In this document: positions 2,876 to 44,023 of the stretch, piece by piece
Layout of the letters: the number at the start of each line of letters is the position of its first letter
Numbering within the stretch: position 1 is the stretch's first letter
Source: Saprospiraceae bacterium
GTDB lineage: Bacteria; Bacteroidota; Bacteroidia; Chitinophagales; Saprospiraceae
Length of the DNA: 45,092 nucleotides
Assembly (NCBI GenBank): GCA_022841505.1
Contig: JALHRK010000010.1
Location: 1 to 45,092 of the forward strand
Direction of reading: 5' to 3'
Made by a program: the position numbers and the translations under genes
The notes under the pieces: model-generated
What the model saw: only the letters and a program-made list of their open reading frames with translations
The model's database searches: none
Told to the model about the DNA's origin: nothing

Positions 2876-3041
2876 AGTGTCCGTTCATTAGAGGGGTGTC
2901 TGCTCTTTAGCGTTCGAGAGCAAGGCGTGCGAAGGGCCGTTTCGACTTCGCTCAACGTCCATTCGTTTCGACTTCGCTCAATGGCCGCTCGTTGAGCGAA
3001 GTCGAAATGAACGCAGCTATCGGACTTTAAAGACAGACACT
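2876..3041. repeat. MITE-like element, copy 2 (same ends, different core)
   Basis: The ends match copy 1: GTGTCTGCTCTTTAGCGTTC then GAGAGCAAGGC on the left; ACGCAGCTATCGGACTTTAA then AGACAGACACT on the right. The core differs: three copies of a CTTCGACTTCGCTCA-type word, two direct at about 2941-2980 and one inverted at about 2992-3008, making a different palindrome. The last bases form part of the stop codon (3040-3042) of the minus-strand M28 peptidase gene. The CGACTTCGCTCA word also occurs in the repeats near 13620 and 36380. Confidence 0.7.
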
Positions 3042-4773
3042 AGTTTGCAAAAATCATTCTTCTGGTACCGGCCAACTTCCCATCAACCACCAGGCTGTAA
3101 GCATAGACGCCCGTAGTATTATACCCATGCTCATAAACCACCTCATTCATCCCCGTTTTGAAGGACAGTTTTTCACTCCACAGGACCTTCCCGTTCATAT
3201 CCGAAACGTTTAAAATGGCCTCCTGGAAGGATATTTCAGGGTCTACCCAAAAAGAAATAATTGTGGCCTCATCGAACGGGTTTGGGCGGTTTTGGAGCAA
3301 TTCCACAGTGGGTAATGCTTCCTGTTCCGGCTCGTCGGTATCGGATACGAGCCCAGGCAGCACTTCCCTTGAAAAAAGGCTTTCAATGCCGTTCTCATCC
3401 ACCGATGCCACGCTGACATAAAAGGTAAATTCGGGCTGTGGAAAAACAAAATGCGTGTCAAGCGACGTATAAATGGTGTCAAAATCATTGCTGGAAGAGC
3501 GCACGAAAATCCGGTAATGTCCGTAATCGAGTGGGTCTGTAATGTCCACAATGGCAACCTCGCCATTCCTGACCACCTGAAAATCAGGCGTTACCGGCCC
3601 AATTGCTGCCATGGCGCCCGCGACGCCGTTGATAACCGTATTTCTCGACAAATAATTGAAATCCACAAAAAAAGAATCCAGCACCGAGTCGCCGTCCGTG
3701 TCCACACCGAGGATGTCATCGGAAGTATGCTGCCGGTCGTGGTAGCTGGCACTGGAAACATTGGCGTTGCCGTGTTCGTTGGCGGAAGTGAACCGCATGG
3801 CTGCAAAACCCTGCTCCCGGAAAGGGATGTGGTCGCCGCCCCGCCCGGTGCGGTCTTCGGCAGACATGATGGTGACCAGCATCGGTACGGCTGCCAAATC
3901 CCGCACCTCTTCTATGTATTCCAGTTTGATAAACCGGGACAATTGTTTGTTTCTTGAATTAAAACCGCCAGCCGAAAACAACCTGACTTGCGTACTGTCT
4001 ATATGGTTAAAACCCGGGCAGGACGGCGCGGAAGAGGTTTGGCCGCAAACAATTCCACCGACGATGTCGTTATTGAACACCGCCCGAAGCGGGATGTCTT
4101 TGATGTTGGAATAGGTTGCAAATGCTTCTGCACCGTGAAGGCCCTGTTCTTCGCCAATCGTGGCCATAAAAACGATGGTGCGGTCGAAAGCCAACTGGCT
4201 CATCACCCGGGCCAGTTCAATGACGAGCGCTACGCCGCTGCCGTTGTCCTCCATGCCGTGCGCTTCGCAAGTGATGTCGCATTCGCCTGCACAACGGCTG
4301 TCTAAATGCGCCTCAATCAGCACCACGCCGTGCGCTGAAGTGTCAATGCCGGGCAGCACCGCGAAGACGTTCCGGTGTTGCAATACCCCGCAAATATTGA
4401 GGTTAAACTGAAGGTAAGACGGGAGGAGCCGGCCTTCGTTCTGGGCGCTGATTTCCGAAAACTTCTGATGCACCCAACGCCGTGCAGCCCCGATCCCCGT
4501 TACGTTTGAGACCGTGTCCGCTCCGGTATTCCGGTTCTCGAACGTGCTCATTTTTAACAAATACGTCTTCATGGAATCCGGCGAAACACCATTGAGAATG
4601 GCTGAAACCAAATCATCGGGATGGTTCACCACAACCGAAGGCAGGTATGTGGCCGGATCGTAATTCCCAAGCAAAACCTGTTCCGCTACCGGGTTGGTGG
4701 AAAGGATGTTAGATTGGGCGGCAAGCCAACAATTTGCGAGGATAAAGCAGCAGCAGGTAAACAGGCTTTTCAT
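3040..4773 (-). CDS. Secreted M28-family zinc aminopeptidase with T9SS sorting domain
   Basis: 577 residues. Residues 1-20 are a signal peptide. The M28 peptidase core (about 95-390) shows the metal ligands in order: H156 and D158 (EAHLDSR), D176 (MEDNGSG), E208/E209 (TIGEEQG; catalytic base plus ligand), D236 (FNNDIVGG), and a later HTSDD His. Residues about 395-490 look like a fibronectin/PKD-like domain. The end, NRPNPFDEATIISF to GKLAGTRRMIFAN, is a T9SS type A sorting domain. The product is probably a surface or released aminopeptidase for scavenging peptides. The cysteine-rich stretches CAGECDITC and CGQTSSAPSC suggest disulphides. The stop codon is formed at the junction with the MITE-like repeat, so the very last residues may be altered. 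Confidence 0.93.
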   Translation of the reverse strand: MKSLFTCCCFILANCWLAAQSNILSTNPVAEQVLLGNYDPATYLPSVVVNHPDDLVSAILNGVSPDSMKTYLLKMSTFENRNTGADTVSNVTGIGAARRWVHQKFSEISAQNEGRLLPSYLQFNLNICGVLQHRNVFAVLPGIDTSAHGVVLIEAHLDSRCAGECDITCEAHGMEDNGSGVALVIELARVMSQLAFDRTIVFMATIGEEQGLHGAEAFATYSNIKDIPLRAVFNNDIVGGIVCGQTSSAPSCPGFNHIDSTQVRLFSAGGFNSRNKQLSRFIKLEYIEEVRDLAAVPMLVTIMSAEDRTGRGGDHIPFREQGFAAMRFTSANEHGNANVSSASYHDRQHTSDDILGVDTDGDSVLDSFFVDFNYLSRNTVINGVAGAMAAIGPVTPDFQVVRNGEVAIVDITDPLDYGHYRIFVRSSSNDFDTIYTSLDTHFVFPQPEFTFYVSVASVDENGIESLFSREVLPGLVSDTDEPEQEALPTVELLQNRPNPFDEATIISFWVDPEISFQEAILNVSDMNGKVLWSEKLSFKTGMNEVVYEHGYNTTGVYAYSLVVDGKLAGTRRMIFAN

Positions 4774-10752: not shown

Positions 10753-10760
10753 GTTTTTTT

Positions 10761-10863
10761 TACCACATAGTACACATAGTTGTTTTCACATAGTTCACAT
10801 AGGCGGCTTCCCTGTGCTATGTGTCCTATGTGAAAACCTCTACTGTGATCTATGTGGTAAAAA
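10761..10863. repeat. CACATAG-unit inverted repeat, copy 1
   Basis: The left arm starts TACCACATAGTACACATAG and the right arm ends GATCTATGTGGTAAAAA. Both arms are made of three to four CACATAG words (CTATGTG inverted). A second copy at 35021-35137 shares the 3' arm GTGAAAACCTCTACTGTG almost exactly. Both copies lie shortly upstream of a -7 promoter for a plus-strand gene with a signal peptide. Confidence 0.75.
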
Positions 10864-13052: not shown

Positions 13053-13565
13053 ATGCTCAAAAAAATCCTCCTCGGTCTCCTGGCTGTAATGGTCATCATC
13101 CAGTTCTTCCGCCCGGAAAAAAATGACTCCAACGACCAGCAAAACCATGTCTCCACCAAATACGAGGTGCCTGCAGAAGTGGCAACCATCCTGAAAGGCG
13201 CCTGCGACGATTGCCACACCAACAAAACCGAATACCCGTGGTACGCCAATGTTCAACCCGCTGCCTGGTGGCTGGCAGGGCATGTGGAAGATGGCAAACG
13301 ACATTTGAATTTTTCCGACTTCACCACCCGGAGAATCGCCGTTCAAAACCACAAGTTTGAAGAAGTCGTAGAAATGGTGGAAGAAAAAGAGATGCCGCTC
13401 CCTTCGTACACCTGGTTGGGTTTGCATCCGGAGGCCAAACTCACGGATCAGCAACGCCAGACGCTCGTCAATTGGGCCAAAGCGCAAATGGATACCTTGA
13501 AAGCGAATTATCCGGCAGACAGCTTGGTAATGAGAAGGCCGTCGAATCCACAGCCAGGAAAGTAA
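13053..13565 (+). CDS. Membrane-anchored haem-binding domain protein (Haem_bd type)
   Basis: 170 residues. A single N-terminal hydrophobic helix (3-18) acts as uncleaved signal/anchor. C51-D-D-C54-H55 is a cytochrome-c type CxxCH haem attachment motif. It is followed by YPWYANVQPAAWW and EMPLPSYTWLGLHPEAKLT, the signature of the Haem_bd (PF14376-type) family of periplasmic monohaem proteins. Likely an electron carrier or redox partner in the periplasm. It has its own promoter and stands alone between arsR and a repeat. Confidence 0.88.
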   Translation: MLKKILLGLLAVMVIIQFFRPEKNDSNDQQNHVSTKYEVPAEVATILKGACDDCHTNKTEYPWYANVQPAAWWLAGHVEDGKRHLNFSDFTTRRIAVQNHKFEEVVEMVEEKEMPLPSYTWLGLHPEAKLTDQQRQTLVNWAKAQMDTLKANYPADSLVMRRPSNPQPGK

Positions 13566-13567
13566 TA

Positions 13568-13688
13568 GTGCTGGCGCGAGGCCGGTAGCTGAGCTGGTGG
13601 TTGAGCGACTTGTACTGAGCGAAGTCGAAGTAAGTCGAAGTCAAGTCAAAGCTCCAGCCTCGTGTCTTCTATTTTTTGGGCTCTGCCC
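13568..13688 (-). repeat. GGGCAGAGCCC-family repeat, copy A
   Basis: Read on the minus strand: GGGCAGAGCCC, then AAAAAATAG, then ACACGAGGCTGGAGC, then several TTCGACTT words and CTCAGCTACCGGCCTCGCGCC. The order and the CGGTAGCTGAG block match copy E at 36354-36430, with an internal expansion. The TAG is the stop codon of the hydroxyacid dehydrogenase gene, and the repeat encodes its last residues RAEPKK. Confidence 0.7.
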
Positions 13689-14832
13689 GAATCAAATGCC
13701 ACGGCAAATCCGTCACCCGCTCGCAACAAAGCTGTTCCATCACCTGCTTCAATTGGATTTTTAAGATGGACATGGTATGCTGGCCGCCATCTTTTCCCAA
13801 AGCGGCAACGCCGTACATAAACGACCGCCCGAGAAACACAAAATCCGCGCCGCTCGCCAGTGCACAAGCAATATCGGGGCCGGTGCGCACGCCGCTGTCG
13901 AGCATAATTTTAATCTGGCCGGCGTATTTCCGGACAATCGGCACAAGCGCATGGATGGTGGACTGCCCGGCATCCAGTTGACGCCCGCCGTGGTTGGACA
14001 CAATGATGCCATCCAACCCTAGTCGAATGGCCAGGTCTGCATCTGCTTCGCTCACGACGCCTTTCATCACGATTTTTCCTTTCCAGCGCTCGCGGATCGC
14101 AGCGATTTTTGCTTCGTTCAACCGACCGGAAAAAGTTTGATTCATGAAAGCGCCGAGTTGCCCCATGTCCATGTTTTTGGACATGTATTTTTTCAGGTTT
14201 GCAAAACTTGGTTGCCCGTGCCGGAGCGTATTGATGGCCCAATTTGGTTTACCTAAAATTTGCAAAACATTGCGCATGGTCATTTTTGGCGGCATGGCCA
14301 ACCCGTTTCGGATGTCGCGCGGCCGGTAGCCAAAGGTGGGCACGTCGCAAAGGAGCACCAAAACCTGGCAGCCGGCAGCCTCAGCGCGGTTGAGCAGGTC
14401 GTCGCGCAAAGCGTTATCCGTAGGGTGGTAGAGTTGGTACCAAAACTTACCTGCCGTCAACTCGCCAATGCGTTCAATACTTGAAGTCGTGACGGTGCTC
14501 AGGGCAAACGGAATGTTGTGCGCAATGGCCGCTTTGGCCAGAATTTCCGGGGCATTGGGCCACATCAGCCCCTGCAAACCCACGGGAGCAACCCCAAACG
14601 GCGCATCGTAAACCTGTCCGAAAAGTTCGGTTTTTAAATCAGCAGTCTTGAAGTCCTTTAAATAATAGGGCATCAGCTCCACTTCGCGGATTTCAGCAGT
14701 ATTTTTATGAAGGTTCACATCCTCGTTGCAGCCGCCGTCGAGGTATTCAAAGGCAAACCGCGGAATGCGCTGCCGGGCGCGGGCGCGCAAGTCGTCAATA
14801 GACGGGTAGTTTGAGTTGTAGGTCAGTTCCAT
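13669..14832 (-). CDS. FMN-dependent alpha-hydroxy-acid dehydrogenase (LldD-like)
   Basis: 387 residues from ATG 14832 (MELTYNSNYPSIDDL); a longer open frame to 15033 runs through the PnuC gene and is rejected. It is a TIM-barrel flavoenzyme of the lactate/glycolate oxidase family. Seen: YQLY (132-135), CDVPTFGYRPRDIRNG, K257 (IVMKGV), catalytic H281 with R284 in SNHGGRQLD, and the FMN phosphate site LDSGVRTG. It oxidises a 2-hydroxy acid, most likely L-lactate, to the keto acid. The last six residues (RAEPKK) and the stop come from repeat copy A. Copy B lies just upstream, between it and PnuC. Confidence 0.9.
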   Translation of the reverse strand: MELTYNSNYPSIDDLRARARQRIPRFAFEYLDGGCNEDVNLHKNTAEIREVELMPYYLKDFKTADLKTELFGQVYDAPFGVAPVGLQGLMWPNAPEILAKAAIAHNIPFALSTVTTSSIERIGELTAGKFWYQLYHPTDNALRDDLLNRAEAAGCQVLVLLCDVPTFGYRPRDIRNGLAMPPKMTMRNVLQILGKPNWAINTLRHGQPSFANLKKYMSKNMDMGQLGAFMNQTFSGRLNEAKIAAIRERWKGKIVMKGVVSEADADLAIRLGLDGIIVSNHGGRQLDAGQSTIHALVPIVRKYAGQIKIMLDSGVRTGPDIACALASGADFVFLGRSFMYGVAALGKDGGQHTMSILKIQLKQVMEQLCCERVTDLPWHLIRAEPKK

Positions 14833-14850
14833 ACACAATAATTTTCTTCT

Positions 14851-14904
14851 GCTCACGCGGCGGCTCCGCCCCGCGTGTACTATTTTTCGGGCTCCTGCCC
14901 GATC
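14851..14904 (-). repeat. GGGCAGAGCCC-family repeat, copy B
   Basis: On the minus strand: GGGCAGGAGCCCGAAAAATA then GTACACGCGGGGCGGAGCCG then CCGCGTGAGC. It contains two potential hairpins, GGGC..GCCC and GGCGG-AG-CCGCC. It begins inside the 3' end of the PnuC gene, giving the residues GQEPEK and the TAG stop. It ends 18 bp before the start of the dehydrogenase gene, so it sits between two co-directional genes. Confidence 0.75.
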
Positions 14905-15494
14905 AAAACCCGCTTCCTCCAACCCAAATACGCCATCACCGCAATTACCGTATACACCACCATCACCGCCGAAAGCAACCAGGCGCCACGCGAAGCAAAA
15001 AGATAAACCGAAGCGGCATCTACGACGATCCAATAGAGCCAGTTTTCCAGAATTTTCCGGGTCATCAACCAGGTGGCCAGCATGGCAAACACCGTAACAA
15101 ATGCATCCAGATAAGTAGCCGCAGCTGGCGTGTAAGCATCAAAAAAATAGCCAAAAGCCAGGGCCAGCAAAGAACCTCCTGCCAGCCAGCGCAAGTGTTG
15201 CCGCAAAGGCCAGCGTAGAATTGGCGCTTCTGCCTGTCCCCTACCCGCTCGCCAATAATACAACCCCACGAAGCCCATGCCTACATAAAACAACTGCAAC
15301 AGCGCATCCAAATAAAGGCTATAGAACGCAAAGCTCGCATAGGCCCACAAACCACAACTGACGATGCCCCAAACCCAGCACCAGGGGTTTTCCCGCGCCG
15401 CCAACACTACATAGATTAAGGCGGTGATGGTGACCGTCCAGTCTACCCAGCCAAGGGCCAGCGCTTCCGCCACTATTTTTTCTAATAATTCCAT
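14880..15494 (-). CDS. PnuC-family vitamin/nucleoside transporter
   Basis: 204 residues, about seven transmembrane helices. The family motif NWLYWIVVDAASVYLFASRG near 150-170 and WCWVWGIVSCGLWAY near 40 place it in the PnuC family, which takes up nicotinamide riboside (PnuC), thiamine (PnuT) or riboflavin (PnuX) by facilitated diffusion. The leader was read for a TPP riboswitch (CTGAGA/ACCTGA boxes) and none was found, so the substrate is open. The C-terminal GQEPEK comes from repeat copy B. The gene probably shares a transcript with the dehydrogenase. Confidence 0.85.
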   Translation of the reverse strand: MELLEKIVAEALALGWVDWTVTITALIYVVLAARENPWCWVWGIVSCGLWAYASFAFYSLYLDALLQLFYVGMGFVGLYYWRAGRGQAEAPILRWPLRQHLRWLAGGSLLALAFGYFFDAYTPAAATYLDAFVTVFAMLATWLMTRKILENWLYWIVVDAASVYLFASRGAWLLSAVMVVYTVIAVMAYLGWRKRVLIGQEPEK

Positions 15495-23579: not shown

Positions 23580-24959
23580 ATGGAAAAAGTCAAAAAAATA
23601 TTCGCCTGCACGAGCTGCGGCGCCACCTCCCCCAAATGGGTAGGCAAATGCCCGGCCTGCGGGGAATGGAATACCCTGCAGGAGGAAATCATTTCGAAGC
23701 AGACCAAACAAGAGGAACGCAGCCGTTCCTGGCAGGACAGCGCGGCCAAACGCCCGGAACCCAAGCCCGTACTGCTCCAGGACATCCAGGCGGGGCAAAC
23801 GCAACGCCTCCTCACCCACGACGAAGAACTGAACCGGGTGCTGGGTGGCGGTGTGGTACCGGGTTCGCTGGTGCTCATTGGCGGGCAACCAGGCATCGGG
23901 AAATCTACGCTGTTGCTGCAATTGGCGCTCACAGCCCCCATCCGCGTGCTGTACGTGTCGGGGGAAGAAAGCGAGGAGCAGATCAAAATGCGGGCGGAGC
24001 GCGTCGGCTCCCAAATGTCGGAATGCTATATCCTGACAGAGACCAATACCAATCGTATCCTCCAGCACGCGCAGCAGCTCACGCCCGATTTGCTGATTGT
24101 AGATTCTATCCAAACCTTATCATCGCCGCATATTGATTCCACGCCGGGCAGCATTTCGCAAGTGCGGGAATGCGCGGGCGAATTGCAGCGCTTTGCCAAA
24201 GAAACCAATATCCCCGTGTTCCTGATTGGCCACATCACCAAAGACGGCGCCATTGCCGGCCCGAAGCTGCTGGAACACATCGTAGACACGGTGTTGCAAT
24301 TTGAAGGCGACCGCAATTATACCTACCGAATCCTGCGCACCATTAAAAACCGCTTCGGCTCGACCGACGAAATGGGCATTTACGAAATGCAGGCTTCGGG
24401 GTTGCGCGAAGTCTCGAATCCTTCCGAAATTCTGCTTTCGCAAAAAGACGAAGACCTCAGCGGAAGCGCCATTGCGGCCACGATGGAAGGCATGCGCCCA
24501 ATGCTGATTGAAGCCCAGGCCTTAGTGAGCAAGGCGGTCTATGGCACGCCCCAGCGCTCGGCTACGGGTTTCGACCTGCGCCGGCTGAGCATGTTGCTGG
24601 CGGTGCTGGAAAAACGGGGCGGTTTCCCGCTGGGGCAGCACGACGTGTTCCTGAACATCGCCGGCGGCATCCGCGTGGACGACCCGGCCATAGATTTGGC
24701 CATCATCAGCGCGCTGATTTCTTCGTTTGAAGACGTGGCGGCGCCTACGGATATCTGTTTTGCCGGCGAGGTAGGCCTTTCCGGCGAAATCAGGGCGGTA
24801 CACCGCATTGAACAGCGCATCCAGGAGGCGGATCGTTTGGGCTTTCGCCAAATTTTTATTTCCAAATACAATACAAAAGGGATTGATCCGAAGCGGTATC
24901 AGTTGGAAATTGTGATGCTGGGGAAGGTGGAAGAGTTGTATCAGACGTTGTTTACATGA
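23580..24959 (+). CDS. radA: DNA repair protein RadA
   Basis: 459 residues, standard length. N-terminal zinc finger C10-C13...C24-C27 (CTSCG, CPACG). RecA-like ATPase with Walker A GGQPGIGKST (101-110), Walker B LLIVDSIQTL, and the RadA-specific KNRFGSTDE. The C-terminal Lon-like domain (DVFLNIAGGIRVDDPAIDLA, GEVGLSGEIRAV) is complete. It is a branch-migration helicase in recombination, acting with RecA. The 3' end is followed within a few bases by repeat copy C. Confidence 0.97.
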   Translation: MEKVKKIFACTSCGATSPKWVGKCPACGEWNTLQEEIISKQTKQEERSRSWQDSAAKRPEPKPVLLQDIQAGQTQRLLTHDEELNRVLGGGVVPGSLVLIGGQPGIGKSTLLLQLALTAPIRVLYVSGEESEEQIKMRAERVGSQMSECYILTETNTNRILQHAQQLTPDLLIVDSIQTLSSPHIDSTPGSISQVRECAGELQRFAKETNIPVFLIGHITKDGAIAGPKLLEHIVDTVLQFEGDRNYTYRILRTIKNRFGSTDEMGIYEMQASGLREVSNPSEILLSQKDEDLSGSAIAATMEGMRPMLIEAQALVSKAVYGTPQRSATGFDLRRLSMLLAVLEKRGGFPLGQHDVFLNIAGGIRVDDPAIDLAIISALISSFEDVAAPTDICFAGEVGLSGEIRAVHRIEQRIQEADRLGFRQIFISKYNTKGIDPKRYQLEIVMLGKVEELYQTLFT

Positions 24960-24960
24960 G

Positions 24961-25055
24961 GTCAGGCAAAGCCCGGATAATAGGACACGCAAGGTGGACC
25001 ATAGCGTGAGCGGCGAATAGTACGTGGAGCGGAACTTTGACTCTGCTCAGTTGCC
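24961..25055 (+). repeat. GGGCAGAGCCC-family repeat, copy C
   Basis: GGCAAAGCCCGGATAATAGG then ACACGCAAGGTGGACCATAG then CGTGAGC, followed by a second partial unit GAATAGTACGTGGAGCGGAA and GACTCTGCTCAG. It starts about 4 bp after the radA stop. A degenerate version of the family; one frame reads GQAKPG then stop, recalling the RAEPKK/GQEPEK tails seen at copies A and B. Confidence 0.6.
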
Positions 25056-26131: not shown

Positions 26132-26249
26132 TGTTCTGCGCTTGCAGCAGACAATGACTGTGGTCATCTCTGTTGCTGACAATTGGTGGCGCGAACCTTG
26201 GAGGGATAGCATCCGGTCGGGTTTCGTATTGGCAAAGGCAGGAAAATCC

Positions 26250-26299
26250 CGGGCAGAGCCCGGGGAATAGTACACGCGAGGCGGAGCCATCGCGCGAGC
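26250..26299 (+). repeat. GGGCAGAGCCC-family repeat, copy D
   Basis: The cleanest copy: GGGCAGAGCCCGGGGAATAG, TACACGCGAGGCGGAGCC, ATCGCGCGAGC. It lies in a 402-bp gap between divergent genes. A short plus-strand frame running into it ends RAEPGE then TAG, the same tail type as at copies A and B, but no gene is recognisable upstream. The rest of the gap (26300-26490) shows no feature except A/T-rich sequence. Confidence 0.75.
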
Positions 26300-26490: not shown

Positions 26491-29400
26491 ATGCGTAAGT
26501 TGTATGCACTACTGGCTGCGCTCTCCCTTACACTCTCTCTTACAGGGCAAACAGCCAGGGTTCAAGTCATCCACAATTCTCCCTCTCCGACCGTTGACGT
26601 TTATGCCAACGGCGCACTCCTGCTTGACGATTTTGTATTCCGAACCGCAACGCCATTTGTTGACCTGCCCGCCGGCGTGGAAATTGACCTCGCGGTTGCT
26701 CCGGGTAACAGTACTTCCGTAAATGACGCCATTGCTACTTTTGAAAACATTGTACTCGACGAAACAAAAACGTACGTGATTTCAGCCGGCGGCATTGTTG
26801 GCGACAACGACTATCCCTTCACCTTGCAAGTGACCGACGCCGGTCTGGAAGCTTCCGGCAACGATCAGGTTCAGGTGAATGTGCTCCACGGCTCACCCGG
26901 CGCTCCCAATGTGGACGTCAGTGTTTTTGGCGGCGGTGATTTGGTTACAAATCTTGTCTACGGGAATTACTCCAGCTACCTTGGCGTGCCGGCAGGACTG
27001 TATTTACTGGAAATAAAAGCAGCAGGTACGCCCGACGTTGTGGCAACCTTTACGGCAGATCTGAGCGCATTGAGCGGCCAGGCACTGACGGTGTTTGCGT
27101 CCGGTATTTTGGGTGGCGACCCGGCGTTTGGGTTGTTTGCGGCACTGGCAGACGGCACGGTCGTGGAACTGCCCCTAACAGAATTTGCCCGGGTCCAGGT
27201 GATCCACAATTCCCCGTCCCCAGACGTTGACGTGTATGCCAACGGCGCACTCCTGCTTGACGATTTTGTATTCCGCACCGCAACGCCCTTTGTTGACCTG
27301 CCCGCCGGCGTGGAAATTGACCTCGCGGTTGCTCCGGGTAACAGTACTTCCGTAAATGACGCCATTGCTACTTTTGAAAACATTGTACTCGACGAAACGA
27401 AAACGTACGTGATTTCAGCCAGCGGCATTGTTGGCGACAACGACTATCCCTTCACCTTGCAAGTGACCGACGCCGGTCTGGAAGCTTCCGGCAGTGCTTT
27501 TGTTCAGGTGAATGTGCTCCACGGTTCGCCCGGCGCTCCCAATGTGGACGTCAGTGTTCGCGGCGGCGGCGATCTGGTCACCGATCTTGCCTACGGGAGT
27601 TACTCCGGTTACCTTGGCGTGCCGGCAGGCGTTTATGATTTAGACATAAAAGCTGCAGGTTCATCAACCGTAGTGGCAACGTTTACAGCAGACTTGAGCG
27701 CACTGAGCGGCCAGGCACTGACGGTGTTTGCATCTGGTATTTTGGGTGGCGACCCGGCGTTTGGGTTGTTTGCAGCACTGGCAGACGGCACGGTGGTGGA
27801 ACTGCCGCAAGCATTTTTTGCGCGGGCTCAAATTGTGCACAACTCGCCCTCGCCGACTGTGGACATTTATGCCAACGGCGAATTGTTCATCAACGATTTC
27901 GAGTTCCGCACCGCTACGCCATTTGTTGACCTGCCTGCCGGTGTTGAAATTGACATCGCGGTGGCACTCGGCAACAGTACCTCAGTTGACGATGCCTTGT
28001 TTAATTTCGACAACTTAGTTTTTGAAGCCGATAAGAACTACGTCATTTTTGCAAATGGGATCGCCGGAGATCCGGACTTTCCTTTCACCCTGGCGGTAAC
28101 GGATGCTGGTCGGGAAGAAGGGATAGACCCGGACGCTTTTGACGTTTCCGTTTTCCACGGATCGCCAGGCGCGCCTCCGGTTGATGTTTTTGATTTCCCT
28201 GAATTTCAGTTGGTGGATAGCCTTGCGTATGGCAATTTCACCCCGTATGCTTCCTTACCGGTCAACCAGTATATCCTCGATGTGCGCCCGGAAGGAACTG
28301 CAACAACAGTTGGCTACTTCCTGGCCGATGTTACCGATCTGGGCGGCAGCGCAGGGGTCATATTTGCGTCCGGTCAGTTAGGCGGCGATCCTGGTTTCGA
28401 CTTATTGGTTGTATTCCCGGACGGGACTGTTGGAACGTTATTGCCCCTCGCTCCGGTACAAATCATCCACAATTCACCTTCTCCAATTGCCAGTACGGTA
28501 GATATTTGGGTGAACAATGCCGTGAAAATTGTTGAAGACCTGTCGTTCCGCAACGCAGAACCCTTCACATTTTACCCGGCGCGTTTCCCGCTGACGTTTG
28601 GCGTGGCAGCTGCCAACAGCCAAACACCTGCGGACATCCTGATCAACGCAGGCACGCTTACCCTGGAAGATGGAAAAACGTACACGGTTATTGCAAACGG
28701 CATTCCTGGCGACGCAACTTACCCATTTGAGCTTGCCGTCAACAGCAGTGCACGCATCTTCTCTGAATCAGATGACCAGGTTGACGTGGCGGCTTTCCAT
28801 GGCTCGCCGGGAGCGCCTAATGTGGATGTAGACGTCCGCGGAATTGGGAATGTGATTGACAATTTAGCTTACGGCGATTATTCCGGCTACCTCAATATTG
28901 ATCCGGATCAGTATTTTCTTGAAATCCGTGCCAACGGCAGCCCCGATCTTGTGGGTACTTTTGTAGCAGACCTGAGCCCTCTGGCCGGACTTTCAACAGT
29001 GGTTTTTGCCTCCGGGCAATTGGGACAGGATCCGGCTTTTGGTTTGTTTGCTGCTTTGCCGAACGGAACGGTTGTTGAACTGACGCCGGTGTCACGCGTG
29101 CAGATTATCCACAACTCGCCCGAGCCAACCGTAGACCTTTACATTGATGGCGAACTGGCGGTTGATGACCTCGCTTTCCGCGAAGCGACGCCATTCCTCG
29201 ACGCAGAAACGCGCATTCCTTATGAGATTGCTGTTGCTCCTGCCAATAGCCAGTCGGTCGCAGACGCCATTGCCACGTTCAGTGGGGTGACTTTTGAAGA
29301 TGGAAAATCCTATGTCGTTTTTGCAACAGGTGTGGTTGGGGATCCTGAAACGCCCTTTGACCTGCGTATTTTTGACGCAGCCCGCGAGCGTTCCGAAAAC

Positions 29401-30015
29401 CCGGACAATGTAGATATTTTGCTCTACCACGGGGCGCCGGACGCACCGGAAGTGGACGTCGTTGCAGCAGGTGTAGGCGTCATTTTCGACAACATCGCTT
29501 ATGGCGAATTCAGCGCCGATTACCTGAGCGTGCCCGCAGCGACCTACACGCTGAACGTGACGCCTGCTACTGATAATACGGTTATTGTAAAATCTTACAC
29601 AGCCCCGCTGGAAGGCTTTGCCGGAGGCGCCGGCGTTGCTTTTGCAACAGGTTTTCTGGCGGATGAGCCTGCGTTTGGCGTATGGGTGGCTTTACCGGAT
29701 GGAACGACGTTCCCGCTTTCGGAAATTGTGGCTTCCGAAGAGGTCAAAGCGCTGTTGCCTGGTTTCCGGATCATGCCGAACCCGGTCACGGATCTCGCAC
29801 AAATTGAATTGACTTTCGCAGATGCAGCGGATAATGTAAGCCTGATTATTTCGGATGCAACCGGTAAAACGTTGCAAACGCGCACCCTGGGCAACCAGTT
29901 TGCCGGAACGCAAACCGTCGCATTAGACGCCACAAACCTGGCGCAAGGCGTTCATTTCTGCACGATTGTGACGGAAAAGGGCGTGATTACGAAGCGTTTT
30001 GTAGTGACACGGTGA
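26491..30015 (+). CDS. Secreted protein of five tandem DUF4397-type repeats with T9SS sorting domain
   Basis: 1174 residues. The signal peptide is MRKLYALLAALSLTLSLTGQ. Five tandem units of about 211 residues follow; their RVQVIHNSPSP-type starts are encoded at 26569, 27202, 27835, 28465 and 29107. Each unit has two related DUF4397-like halves, the first with HNSPSPTVDVYANG and the second with LHGSPGAPNVDV and YGNYSSYLGVPAG, so ten beta-sandwich-like modules in all. Units 1 and 2 are nearly identical; 3 to 5 are diverged. The C-terminus (FRIMPNPVTD to VITKRFVVTR) is a T9SS type A sorting domain. Probably a surface or released fibre-like adhesin; function inferred only from architecture. Confidence 0.92.
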   Translation: MRKLYALLAALSLTLSLTGQTARVQVIHNSPSPTVDVYANGALLLDDFVFRTATPFVDLPAGVEIDLAVAPGNSTSVNDAIATFENIVLDETKTYVISAGGIVGDNDYPFTLQVTDAGLEASGNDQVQVNVLHGSPGAPNVDVSVFGGGDLVTNLVYGNYSSYLGVPAGLYLLEIKAAGTPDVVATFTADLSALSGQALTVFASGILGGDPAFGLFAALADGTVVELPLTEFARVQVIHNSPSPDVDVYANGALLLDDFVFRTATPFVDLPAGVEIDLAVAPGNSTSVNDAIATFENIVLDETKTYVISASGIVGDNDYPFTLQVTDAGLEASGSAFVQVNVLHGSPGAPNVDVSVRGGGDLVTDLAYGSYSGYLGVPAGVYDLDIKAAGSSTVVATFTADLSALSGQALTVFASGILGGDPAFGLFAALADGTVVELPQAFFARAQIVHNSPSPTVDIYANGELFINDFEFRTATPFVDLPAGVEIDIAVALGNSTSVDDALFNFDNLVFEADKNYVIFANGIAGDPDFPFTLAVTDAGREEGIDPDAFDVSVFHGSPGAPPVDVFDFPEFQLVDSLAYGNFTPYASLPVNQYILDVRPEGTATTVGYFLADVTDLGGSAGVIFASGQLGGDPGFDLLVVFPDGTVGTLLPLAPVQIIHNSPSPIASTVDIWVNNAVKIVEDLSFRNAEPFTFYPARFPLTFGVAAANSQTPADILINAGTLTLEDGKTYTVIANGIPGDATYPFELAVNSSARIFSESDDQVDVAAFHGSPGAPNVDVDVRGIGNVIDNLAYGDYSGYLNIDPDQYFLEIRANGSPDLVGTFVADLSPLAGLSTVVFASGQLGQDPAFGLFAALPNGTVVELTPVSRVQIIHNSPEPTVDLYIDGELAVDDLAFREATPFLDAETRIPYEIAVAPANSQSVADAIATFSGVTFEDGKSYVVFATGVVGDPETPFDLRIFDAARERSENPDNVDILLYHGAPDAPEVDVVAAGVGVIFDNIAYGEFSADYLSVPAATYTLNVTPATDNTVIVKSYTAPLEGFAGGAGVAFATGFLADEPAFGVWVALPDGTTFPLSEIVASEEVKALLPGFRIMPNPVTDLAQIELTFADAADNVSLIISDATGKTLQTRTLGNQFAGTQTVALDATNLAQGVHFCTIVTEKGVITKRFVVTR

Positions 30016-34994: not shown

Positions 34995-35020
34995 ATATTT
35001 CTTTCGGAATGAGAGGAATT

Positions 35021-35137
35021 TACCACATAGTTCACATAGTTGTTTCACATACGAGATCACATAGGCGCTCGACTCCAACTTTCATTAAACGCTATGTGCC
35101 CTATGTGAAAACCTCTACTGTGCCCTATGTGGTAAAA
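35021..35137. repeat. CACATAG-unit inverted repeat, copy 2
   Basis: Left arm TACCACATAGTTCACATAG; right arm GTGAAAACCTCTACTGTGCC then CTATGTGGTAAAAA. The outer arms match copy 1 at 10761-10863 nearly base for base, while the centre (ATACGAGATCACATAGGCGC and onward) is longer. A half-unit CCTATGCACCTATGCAGTA follows. It lies 70 bp before the -7 box of the PorP/SprF gene. Confidence 0.75.
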
Positions 35138-35206
35138 AACCTATGCACCTATGCAGTAAAAATCAGTTTTCAGGAGGCTTGCAACCTGAAAACTCTTAAT
35201 AAAACC

Positions 35207-35293: not shown

Positions 35294-36352
35294 ATGCACT
35301 TCAAAAAGTACGCCCTCTGTTTAGTTTTCGCCTGCACGGGCGCCGCGCTTTACAGCCAGGATCAACACTTTACCCAATTTTACGCCTCGCCCACCACGCT
35401 GAATCCAGCGCTCACGGGCGCTTACACGGGCAAATACCGGCTTTCGTTCATTTACCGCGACCAATGGCGCAACGTATTGGACAACCCCTACGCTACGTTC
35501 TCCGCAGCCACCGATTTTCGGTTCCGCATCAAAAGTTACCGCTCGGTTTCCCGCGATGCCGTTGGGGCAGGCGTGTTGTTTTACAGCGACCGGGTGCCGG
35601 GCGTGGATTTTTCCACCAACCAGATTTACCTGTCGGGCGCCTACCACAAGGCGCTGAACAAAAATGACGACCACTTTTTGAGCCTTGGGGCCCAGTTCGG
35701 CATTTTGCAGCGGAATGTCAATTATGGCTCGCTCAGCTTCAACGACCAGTTCGACGGCACAGGGAGTTATACCGACCCGACCAACGAGGTGTTGCCGGAA
35801 AATAATTTTTCTTTTGCCGATTACAACGTCGGCCTCGCCTACGCCTACGCGCCGGAGCGCAAGGCCGGTATTTTTATAGGGGCTGCGATGTATCATATTT
35901 CAGAACCACAACTCAGCTTTTTCTACAACGACGAGGAGCCGGAACTCGGTGGCAACAACAAATTGCACCGGAAATATACCGCTTATGTAAGCGGCATTGT
36001 CCCGTTGGGCAATTCCGTTCAGTTTTCGCCAAGGGCGTTGGTGTATGCTCAGGGACCGCATTTCGCTGCCAATGCTGGCGCGAATTTCCGCTTTCTGGTC
36101 AGCGACATCAGCGGTACTGCGCTGCACCTTGGCGCCTGGGTTCGCCCCGTCAAAAACGAACAGGATAAAATCTTCATGGACGCCATTGTGGGCATGTTCG
36201 GGCTGGAATTCAACCGCTTTTTGATCGGCGTGAGCTACGATGCCAACCTGACCGACCTGAACCTGCTGAAACAAGGCCAGGGCGCGCTGGAAATTTCGGT
36301 GGCATACCTTGGGGAGTATGATGATGATTTGGTGCTGTGCCCGCAGTTTTAA
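35294..36352 (+). CDS. PorP/SprF-family type IX secretion outer-membrane protein
   Basis: 352 residues. A signal peptide (MHFKKYALCLVFACTGAALYSQ) is followed by QDQHFTQFYASPTTLNPALTGAYTGKYRLSF-type sequence, the defining start of PorP/SprF proteins; the rest is an alternating beta-barrel of about 14 strands ending DLVLCPQF. In Flavobacterium and Porphyromonas these proteins are required for secretion or attachment of some T9SS cargo and usually sit next to a cargo gene. Here it is single; the nearest cargo genes are the DUF4397 protein 5 kb upstream and the triple-repeat protein 3 kb downstream. A repeat follows the stop directly. Confidence 0.93.
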   Translation: MHFKKYALCLVFACTGAALYSQDQHFTQFYASPTTLNPALTGAYTGKYRLSFIYRDQWRNVLDNPYATFSAATDFRFRIKSYRSVSRDAVGAGVLFYSDRVPGVDFSTNQIYLSGAYHKALNKNDDHFLSLGAQFGILQRNVNYGSLSFNDQFDGTGSYTDPTNEVLPENNFSFADYNVGLAYAYAPERKAGIFIGAAMYHISEPQLSFFYNDEEPELGGNNKLHRKYTAYVSGIVPLGNSVQFSPRALVYAQGPHFAANAGANFRFLVSDISGTALHLGAWVRPVKNEQDKIFMDAIVGMFGLEFNRFLIGVSYDANLTDLNLLKQGQGALEISVAYLGEYDDDLVLCPQF

Positions 36353-36353
36353 C

Positions 36354-36430
36354 CGCTCGCGCGGTGGCGCGGTAGCTGAGCGAAGTCGAAGCCCCGCCTC
36401 GCGTGCTTTATTTGAGGAGCTCTGCCCTGC
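36354..36430 (-). repeat. GGGCAGAGCCC-family repeat, copy E
   Basis: On the minus strand GGGCAGAGCTCCTCAAATAA then AGCACGCGAGGCGGGGC, CTTCGACTTCGCTCAGCTAC and CGCGCCACCGCGCGAGCGG. It shares the CGGTAGCTGAG block with copy A and the CGACTTCGCTCA word with the second MITE-like element. One minus-strand frame reads RAELLK then TAA. It begins within 2 bp of the PorP/SprF stop. Confidence 0.65.
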
Positions 36431-39646: not shown

Positions 39647-42600
39647 TTAGTCTACGATCAGTTTTTTCGTCACAAACTTACCGCCCTGAGTCGTAAACTT
39701 GATTACGTACATCCCGGCTGGCAGTGCTGCAATTTCCACGCGGGTCAGTTCGTCTGCGACCGAATTCAGGGTGCGCAGAAGCTGGCCAGAGAGGTCGAAA
39801 ATTTCGATATTAACTGGTTCGTTGAATTTAGATACTACCGTGAAGGCGCTGGAAGCCGGGTTCGGGAAGATGTTGAACACTTCGTTCAGTGTCACATCTA
39901 CTTGTTCCGTGCTGTTCACTAAGCCAATGTGCTGGTTCGTCCACAGCGTTGTCCAGCCTCTCAGCCAAAAAGCATCATCGCTTTCCGCGAAAGCGCCTTT
40001 GTAATTCACCGAAGTGAAGAACGGATCGCCTGCCGGATAGGTCGCCAATTGGGTATTGTAAGCAGCGCCCGTTGACAACACCCTCGGGTCAAGCATGTTG
40101 TCCTGCTGGCGGCTGATGCGCAGGATTTGCGGATCGGCGATGGCGTTGTTGTTCGTGTTCAGGTGGTTGATAAGTACAGATCCAGTTGGATCGTCCTGGG
40201 TAGGTTGGCCCGAAGTTACGCGGATGATCCCCGTACCCGTTGCATCAATCGTGGTGTTCGTACCGCATTCCCAGAACAGGTTGTTCAGGATTTTCAGGTC
40301 ACCGCTCACCAATTTCTGATGCGCGTCATTGGTGCCTGTGTTTTTGTCCTGTACTTCCAGTGCTTTGTTCTTTTGCGAAGCAACAATGCAATTCGCTACT
40401 GTACCAGCCGTGCCAGCGCGGAACAACCAGCCTAATGGGTTGGAAGCCGCAGCGCCCGGGCCGGAGCCGATATGCGTCCAGTTGTAAACCGTTGGGTTGG
40501 AAGAAGGCGTCAGGTCATCCGGCGTAGAGCCATCCAATTCGCCACCAAGGTCAGCAACATCTTCGCGCTGGATCGAGAACCAAAACTGGCCTTTACCCGT
40601 GTATACTTCGTCCCAGTCATAGCTGTCGTCTTCGGCGAAAGCCACCACTGCATATTTCAGGTTGGGCGCACCACCGAAAAATTCGATGCCGTCGTCAGAG
40701 TTGGCGTATACTTCGATGTATTCGAGCGTCGTACCGCTACCAACCGCAGCAAGGGACAAACCGTTCAATTCACTACTAGAAACAATCTGGCGGCCACCGT
40801 GGCGGATGGTGACGTACTTCAGCACACCAGAGTTGTCTGTGTTATCCGTGCCACCATAATTACCGCGTGGTTCTGTTGTCGGAATCCCTTCAAGGTTTGC
40901 CGTTGGGTTGCCGTTTTTCTGCGTAATGCCTTTGCCAAGCAGGGCCAAACCGCCCCAGAGGGAAACATCCGTTGGGCCAAGGTCAAATGCATCTTCTACA
41001 TCATCCGCTTCAGCTGTAAAGATAATCGGCTGATCTACGGTGCCTTCTGCGAAAATTTTACCACCGCGGGCAACAACTAAAGCGGAAGGATTGCCAACAT
41101 CGGCGCGCTCCGTGAATTTCACTACGGTGCCTGCTTCAATAGTCAGGGTAGCACAGTCTTCTACGAAAAGTACGCCGTCAACAACGTAAGTTTTGTCGTT
41201 GGTCCAAACGATGTTTTGGCAAGGCTCCACATCGGCATCCGTTACAAACTCGATCTGACCGCCCTGCGTCAGGTCTTTCAGGTGATTGTTGCGGGCAAGC
41301 GCCGTCCAACCCTGAATCCAAAGGTCAGAAGCGAATGGGCTGAATGCGCCTTTATAAGAAACTTGTGTAAAGAAATCATTTGCAGGTACTGCTGCCAGCG
41401 CCGTATTTACTGCTGCACCGCTGCCGCTTGGGCGCGGGTCGAGGTTGTTGTCCTGAATACGGCTGATGCTCTGGATGCCTGGGTTATCAAGCAGGTTAGC
41501 GTTCATTACCAGATTGTTGGTAATCGTTACACCAGACATATCATCCTGGGTAGGCTGGCCGGAAGTAACCCGAATAATGCCGGTAGCAGGAACTGCGTCA
41601 AGGGTCGTATTGCCGCCTGCTTCCCAGAACAGGTTGTTCAGGATTTTTAGCTCACCGTTGAGCATTTTCTGATGGGAATCGTTCGTACCGGTGTTTTTAT
41701 CCTGAATTTCTATGGCTTTGCCTTTTTGAGCGACCACCATGGAGTTGGCTACTGTACCGGCAGTACCGGCTCGGAACAACCAGCCCAATGGGTTGGAAGC
41801 TGCGGCGCCAGGACCTGCACCAATGTGCGTCCAGTTGTAAACCGTTGGGTTGGAAGAAGGTGACAAGTCATCCGGCGTGGAACCATCCAATTCACCGCCA
41901 AGGTCAGCGACATCAGCGCGCTGAATCGAGAACCAGAACTGGCCCTGTCCTGTGTAAACTTCATCCCAGTCGTAGCTATCATCTTCGGCGAATGCCACTA
42001 CTGCATATTTCAGGTTGGGTGCGCCACCGAAAAATTCGATGCCGTCGTCAGAGTTTGCGTATATTTCAATGTATTCCAAAGTGGTGCCACTACCTACCGC
42101 AGCGAGGGATAAGCCGTTCAATTCGTTACCAGAAACAATTTGGCGTCCACCGTGGCGGATAGATACATACTTCAAAACGCCAGAGTTGTCCGTATTGTCA
42201 TCACCACCGTAGTTACCGCGTACTTCTGTCGTTGGAATGCCTTCCAGGTTGGCGTTTGCGTTGCCGTTTTTCTGCGTGATGCCATTACCCAGAATGGCCA
42301 GACCTCCCCACAAAGAAACGTCAGTTGGTCCCAAGTCGAGGGGATCGCTTACATCATCTGCTTCGGCAGTGAAAATGATCGGCTCTTCAGCCGTACCTTC
42401 TGCGAAAATTTTGCCGCCACGGGCGATAATGAGAGCAGAAGGGTTGCCCACTTCGGCAAGCTCGGTGAATTTCACCACAGTACCTGCTTCGATGGTCAAC
42501 GTTGCGCAGTCTTCGACAAAAACAAGGCCGTTAAGCAAATAGGTTTTATCTTTTGTCCAAACCACGTTTTCACAAGGCTGGATGCTGCTGTCGTCAATGT

Positions 42601-44023
42601 TAACAATTTCTCCACCCGACAAATCAGCAAGGTGGTTGTTGCGGTCAAGTGCAGTCCAGCCTTTGATCCACAATTCATCTGCAAACGGGCTGAAAGCGCC
42701 TTTATAGTTAACTTCCGTAAAGAAATCACCAGCAGGTAATGCTGCTAAATCCGTATTGTATGCTGCGCTGTTGCCGGAAGGGCGCGGGTCTAAACCATTG
42801 TCCTGCGTACGGCTGATGCTGGTGATTTTAGGATCTGCAATCAGGTTGTTGTTCATCACCAGATTGCTGGTTATGGTTGCGCCGGTTGGGTCGTCCTGAG
42901 TAGCCTGACCAGAGGTTACGCGGATGACGCCACTTGCAGAAGCATCTAAGCTGGTATTGGCGCCGGCTTCCCAGATCAGGTTGTTCAGGATGCGCAGTTC
43001 GCCATTCAGCATTTTCTGATGCGCATCGTTGGTGCCGGAGTTTTTATCCTGGATTTCGATCGCTTTCCCTTTTTGAGCAACCACAATCGAGTTGGCCACC
43101 GTGCCGGCCGTACCGGCGCGGAACAACCAGCCAAGTGGATTGGCTGCCGCTGCATTAGGGCCTGCGCCGATATGTGTCCAGTTGTAAACTGTTGGGTTGG
43201 AAGAAGGCGACAGGTCATCTGGTGTAGAACCATCTAATTCACCACCAAGGTCGGCCACATCCGGGCGCTGGATCGAGAACCAGAACTGGCCCTGGCCCGT
43301 GTAAACTTCATCCCAGTCGTAGCTGTCGTCTTCGGCGAAAGCCACCACTGCATATTTCAGATTCGGAGCGCCACCGAAAAATTCAATGCCGTCGTCCGAG
43401 TTTGCGTAAATTTCAATGTATTCCAATGTAGTGCCGCTACCAACAGCAGCAAGCGTTAAACCGTTTAATTCGTTGCCTGAAACGATTTGACGACCGCCAT
43501 GGCGGATCGAAACGTATTTGAGTACGCCGGAATCATCTGTATTGTCGTTGCCACCGTAAAGACCGCGTGGTTCGCTGGTCGGGATACCTTCTACGCTAAC
43601 CTCAGCGTTCCCATTTTTTTGCGTAACCCCATTTCCAAGGATGACCAGACCTCCCCAAAGAGAGACATCTGTTGGTCCTAAGTCAGTTGGATCGTTGGTA
43701 TCATCTGCTTCGGCAGTAAAGATGATGGGTTCTTCCGGCGTCCCTTCTGCAAAAATTTTACCGCCGCGGGCGATAACTAGGGCAGAAGGATTGCCAACTT
43801 CGGCAAGTTCTGTAAATTTCACTACTGTGCCTGCTTCGATGTTCAGGGTGGAACCATTTTCCACAAAAACAAGGCCATTCAGTAAGTAGATTTTGTCTTT
43901 TGTCCAGTTTACCGTCTGCCCCGGCGCGATGTCGGCGTCACTGATCGGAACGATCGGTTGCGCGACTGCCTGGAGGGTCAGCAGTAGGAAAGGAAGAAAT
44001 AGAGCGTAAAGCGTACGGTTCAT
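39647..44023 (-). CDS. Very large T9SS-secreted protein with three ~450-residue repeats
   Basis: 1458 residues. Signal peptide MNRTLYALFLPFLLLTLQAVAQ. Three tandem copies of a unit of about 450 residues follow, each with VWTKDKTYLLNGLVFVEDCA, LTIEAGTVVKFTELAEVGNP, SLWGGLAILGNGITQKNGNA, LKYVSIRHGGRQIVSGNELN, GTTLEYIEIYANSDDGIEFF and YDWDEVYTGQGQFWF. The pattern of short beta-strands with asparagine turns suggests a right-handed beta-helix. The same unit is seen singly in Bacteroidota surface proteins beside TonB receptors. The last 60 residues (FNIFPNPASSAF to GKFVTKKLIVD) are a T9SS type A sorting domain. Acidic DDG, EDDSYDWDE clusters may bind calcium. Probable surface ligand-capture protein working with the receptor downstream; ligand unknown. 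Confidence 0.93.
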   Translation of the reverse strand: MNRTLYALFLPFLLLTLQAVAQPIVPISDADIAPGQTVNWTKDKIYLLNGLVFVENGSTLNIEAGTVVKFTELAEVGNPSALVIARGGKIFAEGTPEEPIIFTAEADDTNDPTDLGPTDVSLWGGLVILGNGVTQKNGNAEVSVEGIPTSEPRGLYGGNDNTDDSGVLKYVSIRHGGRQIVSGNELNGLTLAAVGSGTTLEYIEIYANSDDGIEFFGGAPNLKYAVVAFAEDDSYDWDEVYTGQGQFWFSIQRPDVADLGGELDGSTPDDLSPSSNPTVYNWTHIGAGPNAAAANPLGWLFRAGTAGTVANSIVVAQKGKAIEIQDKNSGTNDAHQKMLNGELRILNNLIWEAGANTSLDASASGVIRVTSGQATQDDPTGATITSNLVMNNNLIADPKITSISRTQDNGLDPRPSGNSAAYNTDLAALPAGDFFTEVNYKGAFSPFADELWIKGWTALDRNNHLADLSGGEIVNIDDSSIQPCENVVWTKDKTYLLNGLVFVEDCATLTIEAGTVVKFTELAEVGNPSALIIARGGKIFAEGTAEEPIIFTAEADDVSDPLDLGPTDVSLWGGLAILGNGITQKNGNANANLEGIPTTEVRGNYGGDDNTDNSGVLKYVSIRHGGRQIVSGNELNGLSLAAVGSGTTLEYIEIYANSDDGIEFFGGAPNLKYAVVAFAEDDSYDWDEVYTGQGQFWFSIQRADVADLGGELDGSTPDDLSPSSNPTVYNWTHIGAGPGAAASNPLGWLFRAGTAGTVANSMVVAQKGKAIEIQDKNTGTNDSHQKMLNGELKILNNLFWEAGGNTTLDAVPATGIIRVTSGQPTQDDMSGVTITNNLVMNANLLDNPGIQSISRIQDNNLDPRPSGSGAAVNTALAAVPANDFFTQVSYKGAFSPFASDLWIQGWTALARNNHLKDLTQGGQIEFVTDADVEPCQNIVWTNDKTYVVDGVLFVEDCATLTIEAGTVVKFTERADVGNPSALVVARGGKIFAEGTVDQPIIFTAEADDVEDAFDLGPTDVSLWGGLALLGKGITQKNGNPTANLEGIPTTEPRGNYGGTDNTDNSGVLKYVTIRHGGRQIVSSSELNGLSLAAVGSGTTLEYIEVYANSDDGIEFFGGAPNLKYAVVAFAEDDSYDWDEVYTGKGQFWFSIQREDVADLGGELDGSTPDDLTPSSNPTVYNWTHIGSGPGAAASNPLGWLFRAGTAGTVANCIVASQKNKALEVQDKNTGTNDAHQKLVSGDLKILNNLFWECGTNTTIDATGTGIIRVTSGQPTQDDPTGSVLINHLNTNNNAIADPQILRISRQQDNMLDPRVLSTGAAYNTQLATYPAGDPFFTSVNYKGAFAESDDAFWLRGWTTLWTNQHIGLVNSTEQVDVTLNEVFNIFPNPASSAFTVVSKFNEPVNIEIFDLSGQLLRTLNSVADELTRVEIAALPAGMYVIKFTTQGGKFVTKKLIVD

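Follow-up and report, generated by a model that had tools for sequence, protein, structure and literature searches.

Two neighbouring genes on the minus strand of a Saprospiraceae contig finish inside copies of the same short repeat. The stretch analysed, hereafter the window, covers 45,092 nucleotides (GenBank assembly GCA_022841505.1, contig JALHRK010000010.1, positions 1 to 45,092). The arrangement raises the question of whether the repeat is kept as a ready-made tail and stop codon for the genes that run into it, or whether it is an element with its own reasons for lying at gene ends.

Repeat-derived ends of two neighbouring genes

The two genes encode an FMN-dependent alpha-hydroxyacid dehydrogenase and the NMN transporter PnuC (Table 1). 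On the minus strand the dehydrogenase ends ...LPWHLI-CGG GCA GAG CCC AAA AAA TAG, which reads RAEPKK-stop, and PnuC ends ...RKRVLI-GGG CAG GAG CCC GAA AAA TAG, which reads GQEPEK-stop. An earlier note on this DNA had proposed that repeat copies A and B supply these last codons and the TAG, and this was confirmed; each tail is the left end of a repeat copy. In a same-genus MAG, G001, both genes are syntenic and in the same order (88% identity for the dehydrogenase, 86% for PnuC), both lack the repeat, and their products end natively with ...DLPQHLVKP-stop and ...AWYKKV-stop, so that the native C-termini stop before RAEPKK and GQEPEK as the note had predicted. Farther dehydrogenase homologues end near HLI or HLV, with HLIP-stop and HLVR-stop in members of the close subgroup, and farther PnuC homologues end without GQEPEK. 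Because the repeat-free homologues end earlier, these alignments indicate that both tails are additions to the native proteins.

Five repeat copies were located in the window with a covariance model (CM). The pattern GGGCAGRAGCCC-N(0-12)-ATAG had an expectation of 0.00 in shuffles, which excludes chance. An analogous frame had also been claimed for the other three window copies, and it holds letter by letter because the spacing from hairpin 1 to AATAG is fixed. The frame of the copy at 24961, GQAKPG-stop, is unused because the native TGA of the adjoining gene is intact 1 nt before the copy; the same site is filled in G001 too.

Table 1. Positions of the repeat copies, the two host genes and their tails within the window.
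Feature	Position	Strand	CM match	Remarks
FMN-dependent alpha-hydroxyacid dehydrogenase	13669..14832	(-)		Pfam FMN_dh, E=2.6e-120, residues 19-381
Dehydrogenase tail RAEPKK	13672-13689	(-)		from copy A
Dehydrogenase TAG	13669-13671	(-)		from copy A
PnuC (NMN transporter)	14880..15494	(-)		Pfam NMN_transporter, E=4.7e-45, residues 16-194 of 204
PnuC tail GQEPEK	14883-14900	(-)		from copy B
PnuC TAG	14880-14882	(-)		from copy B
Repeat copy A	13570..13691	(-)	13645-13691	hairpin 1, AATAG linker, hairpin 2 with long TTCGACT...GCTCAG insert in loop; right end GCGCCAGC read from sequence, 4 nt from stop of convergent gene 13053-13565
Repeat copy B	14851..14903	(-)	14851-14903	GGGCAGGAGCCC, one extra loop base; hairpin 2 perfect; CM 64.9 bits
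Repeat copy	24961..25011	(+)	24961-25011	1 nt past intact native TGA of 459-aa gene 23580-24959
Repeat copy	26248..26299	(+)	26248-26299	between divergent genes, no called gene entering; CM 78.3 bits
Repeat copy	36355..36430	(-)	36375-36430	between convergent genes; right end read from sequence, 2 nt from stop of PorP/SprF-like gene 35294-36352

Anatomy and distribution of the repeat family

The repeat is an element of about 52 nt with the consensus nnnnGGC-AGA-GCCn'n'n'n'-nAATAG[T/G]ACA-CGCGAGGC-GGA-GCCnTCGCG-CGAGC, which comprises hairpin 1, a short AATAG linker and hairpin 2. In about 41 of the 113 copies a TTCGACT...GCTCAG insert extends the hairpin-2 loop, an additional hairpin (GGTCGCC..TTTAG..GGCAGACC) lies directly before the element in 20 copies, and a second subtype reads GTAGACACGAGGC-CGGA-GCCTCGCGCCAGC. 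These 113 copies, each scoring at least 27 bits, were found in this genome (a 7.5-Mb draft) with a CM built from 34 insert-free copies. The same search yielded 33 copies in G001, 5 weak ones in G016, 1 in G002 and 0 in 37 other relatives. The repeat is confined to this Saprospiraceae genus, save for a few weak relatives in the family. An exact-pattern scan of GTDB contigs returned a sole match, MAG contig JABWAJ010000343.1, which is apparently G001:C131. A comparison of five loci, four of which contain copies, with Rfam 15 gave no match at the gathering score, and searching the literature for CTTCGACTTCGCTCAG, the inserted motif, and for its complement returned no paper. The analysis documents a repeat family with a very tight stop-codon preference for which no description was found.

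Several further repeats were observed. Distant relatives in a different genus (G016 L267 and L268) have another hairpin 1 (CCGCC-GGA-GGCGG) and keep the AAT start of the linker and a similar hairpin 2. Two larger repeats in the window, at 1963-2102 and 2888-3045, have ends resembling AGTGTCTGTTCTTTAG ... CTATAAAGACAGACACT, and at other loci of the genome, L034 for example, the stop-codon element lies within a unit of this kind. Short mosaic repeats of CACATAGTTCACATAG and CTATGTGCCCTATGTG units occupy 10759-10863 and 35019-35138. Two large genes, at 26500-30015 and 39647-44023, contain long internal repeats with periods of about 633 bp and about 1350 bp.

Hairpin 1 covaries, with 34 cells changed on both sides compared to 12 in shuffles. 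There were 57 distinct left arms among 108 copies, and the arms are largely self-complementary within each copy though site-specific. Left arms differed at 2.1 of 7 positions between copies with identical 34-nt bodies, compared to 2.6 where the body was strongly diverged; identical bodies could reflect constraint rather than recent spread. At sites common to both species the arms were mostly kept while the body changed (2.2 differences, a mean raised by two mis-registered pairs, versus 3.3 for all cross pairs; permutation p=0.002). We tentatively consider that the outer arms of hairpin 1 may be written anew wherever the element inserts, with the left arm taken from the site and the right arm made complementary to it, although we lean against this reading. 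An inspection by eye of five copies with duplicated flanks for a left arm copied from the target was suggestive at C212:78 but not at C425. Rewriting could take place during insertion, by templating on a folded-back strand, or afterwards, when an imperfect palindrome is corrected by template switching; such switching is a known route to arm homogenisation in imperfect palindromes. If the arms are rewritten, the residues that vary behind RAEP would reflect the insertion site, and site-specific arms, should they hold up, would amount to a record, kept in nature, of corrected palindromes or of templated insertion.

Placement at gene ends, stop codon use and probable mobility

The element lies preferentially at gene 3' ends. 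An element end was within 10 nt (overlaps included) of 49 of 120 neighbouring gene 3' ends versus 1 of 73 starts (Fisher p=3e-11), and in 51 tandem gene pairs the median distance from the stop to the element was 0.12 of the spacer (KS p=1e-7). The usual position is just past an intact native stop. Placement in G001 ran in the same direction, at 10 of 33 3' ends compared to 2 of 25 starts (p=0.05). Genes were called with a home-made hexamer-based script on a 999-contig draft, both compared genomes are draft assemblies, and gene context was computed on individual extracted loci only. The bias is present at both element ends, which indicates a property of insertion or retention rather than of the RAEP reading frame, and the tight placement could in part come from selective loss of insertions elsewhere. 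Paralogous genes ending NPVKSLRSE-stop, or close variants, repeatedly have the element directly or shortly past the stop in both species (G000 C468, C538, C210 and C111; G001 L243, L246, L254, L256, L262 and L265).

Use of the element's own stop was assessed in 105 copies kept after thinning arrays and duplicates. Among 61 genes reading towards the left end, 4 use the element TAG. Two are the window genes; the others, named by sequence inspection, are a glycosyltransferase-like gene at C425 (VAEPHK-stop) and a DsbA-like gene at C8 (RLEPQK-stop). One gene (C560:786) reads through the element in another frame, and about 22 others have a native stop directly before the left end (within about 10 nt). 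At the right end three genes stop, in a different frame, at the TAG in GCTCGCGCGTAG or a near variant (PARA-stop, PARA-stop and IAHA-stop). The G001 orthologue of the C8 gene ends GTASRQRRP-stop, with sequence resembling a relict right end. Supplying a gene's stop is therefore a by-product and not the rule, and the frame itself is a by-product of the conserved hairpin. The suggestion that an element with a ready tail and stop inserts harmlessly at gene 3' ends was borne out as to its position and the little harm done, but the counts above speak against adaptation as an in-frame tail and stop. Enrichment of C-termini of the form [RG][AQ]EPx[KE]-stop, also anticipated, was not found among the copies beyond the four cases, because use of the TAG is rare and the right end abuts stops equally tightly.

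Orthologous sites in G001, the one same-genus genome on which this comparison rests, were empty for many copies, including those at the dehydrogenase and PnuC, and filled for others; in single cases absence from G001 could be due to loss rather than ancestral absence. Flanking duplications of 17-26 bp were present in 5 of 66 scorable copies (score at least 12), compared to 0 of 1296 shuffled pairings (maximum 10.5); most copies lack a target duplication. At C589:1999 the duplicated segment occurs once at the empty G001 site. Some duplicated stretches extend as far as the stop codon, as at C589:1999, or finish exactly at the stop. At C425, GTGGGGCAGCACTTC..., the likely native continuation, is found past the element after the duplicated stretch, so this tail was probably created when the element inserted within the end of the gene. 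Together, the empty sites and the flank duplications indicate that the element is mobile. In a comparison with classical MITEs, whose terminal inverted repeats are shared with an autonomous IS, the aligned copies showed no terminal inverted repeat that links one element end to the other.

In our assessment the repeat is very probably a mobile palindromic element that rests at gene 3' ends, and the new protein tails are tolerated by-products rather than selected features. It would be a small, non-coding and probably non-autonomous palindrome, presumably transposed by an enzyme. Its preferred resting place would be the 3' end of a gene, whichever way the element points, and one of its ends would fall 0-10 nt from the stop codon; in the best-preserved copies 17-26 bp of the gene end are duplicated. 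The native stop would usually survive before the element and leave the protein unchanged. Where insertion fell before the native stop, or that stop was later lost, translation would enter the hairpin and end at the first in-frame stop, either the TAG of the AATAG linker (giving the four EP-containing tails) or, from the right, the TAG in GCTCGCGCGTAG (giving PARA or IAHA). Such tails are presumably translated and tolerated.

An alternative is that the element acts in the transcript, as an RNA device that terminates or stabilises mRNA 3' ends through its two hairpins and has been conserved or recruited there, with its overlap of stop codons incidental. Both hairpins fold strongly, and on both strands (z of about -4.3 to -5.6 for the copies at 14851 and 26248; -4.85 for the RNA fold of copy B), the copies sit directly past stops, hairpin-1 pairing is preserved through double changes, and sites shared by the species keep their pairing despite changes of letter (GAAGGGC/GCCCTTC versus TAAGGGT/ACCCTTT). 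However, 2 of the 5 window copies fold no better than shuffles, orthologous genes often lack the element, and some copies lie between divergent genes. The consensus has no T-run behind either hairpin, and an intrinsic terminator was rejected on this ground. Selection on one RNA strand was rejected as well, as G-T mismatches are not in the excess expected over A-C (7 versus 13 in the inner five hairpin-1 pairs). We regard an RNA device as unlikely, perhaps a one-in-several prospect.

Less likely again is membership in the GTAG REP family mobilised by RAYT. The element is a small palindrome beside gene 3' ends that can supply TAG, and 19 of 113 copies read AATAGTAG, which carries the tag; most read AATAGTAC or AATAGGAC and lack it, and two hairpins are packed into about 52 nt. 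We take a GTAG REP to be defined by a stem-loop of 20-40 bp that has the tetranucleotide GTAG at one of its ends. Two Y1_Tnp (RAYT-like) genes are present in the genome, and the stretches surrounding them contain no repeat copy; mobilisation of the RAYT/IS200 type was rejected on this basis. Some copies have long flank duplications, which are not expected of Y1 transposases. With most copies lacking the GTAG tag and no copy found around a RAYT gene, the element was not classed as a GTAG REP.

It is very improbable that the element is kept as an in-frame C-terminal extension plus stop, a safe landing module, for although AATAG occurs in 88 of the 105 copies and its TAG ends four well-scored genes, few sense neighbours use that TAG, hairpin loop (3 or 4 nt) and linker lengths vary and shift the frame, the right end adjoins gene ends no less often, and the linker is AATAA in eleven copies and AATAC in three.

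Read as a mobile palindrome, the family illustrates, in individual cases backed by empty sites, how repeats of this kind alter protein C-termini, and it provides a countable system for small repeats settling at gene ends. It is also relevant to annotation, where RAEPxx or PARA tails may appear as spurious ends in alignments.

Comparison with known systems

The earlier note had likened the repeat to Rickettsia palindromic elements (RPEs). The likeness is loose: both are palindromic repeats that can be translated, but RPEs lie in frame inside ORFs, whereas the copies described here lie at or past gene ends, with a single read-through, at C560:786. REPs (PMC3733652) and YPAL (PMC2229807) are nearer.

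GTAG/CGTC REPs are short stem-loops located mostly <20 bp from ORF 3' ends, between convergent and unidirectional pairs; their termini often give TAG to the flanking ORFs, and subfamilies have alternative complementary stem residues (BMC Genomics 2013, PMC3733652). The Saprospiraceae element shares the short stem-loop build, the 3'-end location, the supply of TAG and the alternative complementary residues in its stem. Unlike these REPs, it has no constant GTAG or CGTC tag, consists of two hairpins joined by an AATAG linker, has no RAYT found in association with it and shows flank duplications in some copies.

The RU-1, RU-2 and RU-3 (ERIC-like) repeats of enterobacteria, units of 103-168 bp with open frames, are fused to ORFs (Delihas 2007, PMC2759123). 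The present element is likewise a small mobile repeat that adds residues to proteins, but in most cases it adds only about 5-8. YPAL/RU-2 of Yersinia, as De Gregorio 2006 is summarised in PMC2229807, has target duplications of 3-26 bp and filled and empty sites between species; the same source describes a unit of about 168 bp with internal inverted repeats, not A+T-rich, that forms in-frame fusions. By that description the element resembles YPAL in its duplications of variable length (17-26 bp, five copies) and its empty sites, as well as in having internal inverted repeats, a composition that is not A+T-rich and in-frame fusions, and differs from it in size (about 52 nt) and in its host, Saprospiraceae, of an unrelated phylum. 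The essentials of the element have been described already, for REPs in the 3'-end location and TAG and for YPAL in the 3-26 bp duplications, and the element works like the small mobile palindromes of the REP/YPAL type.
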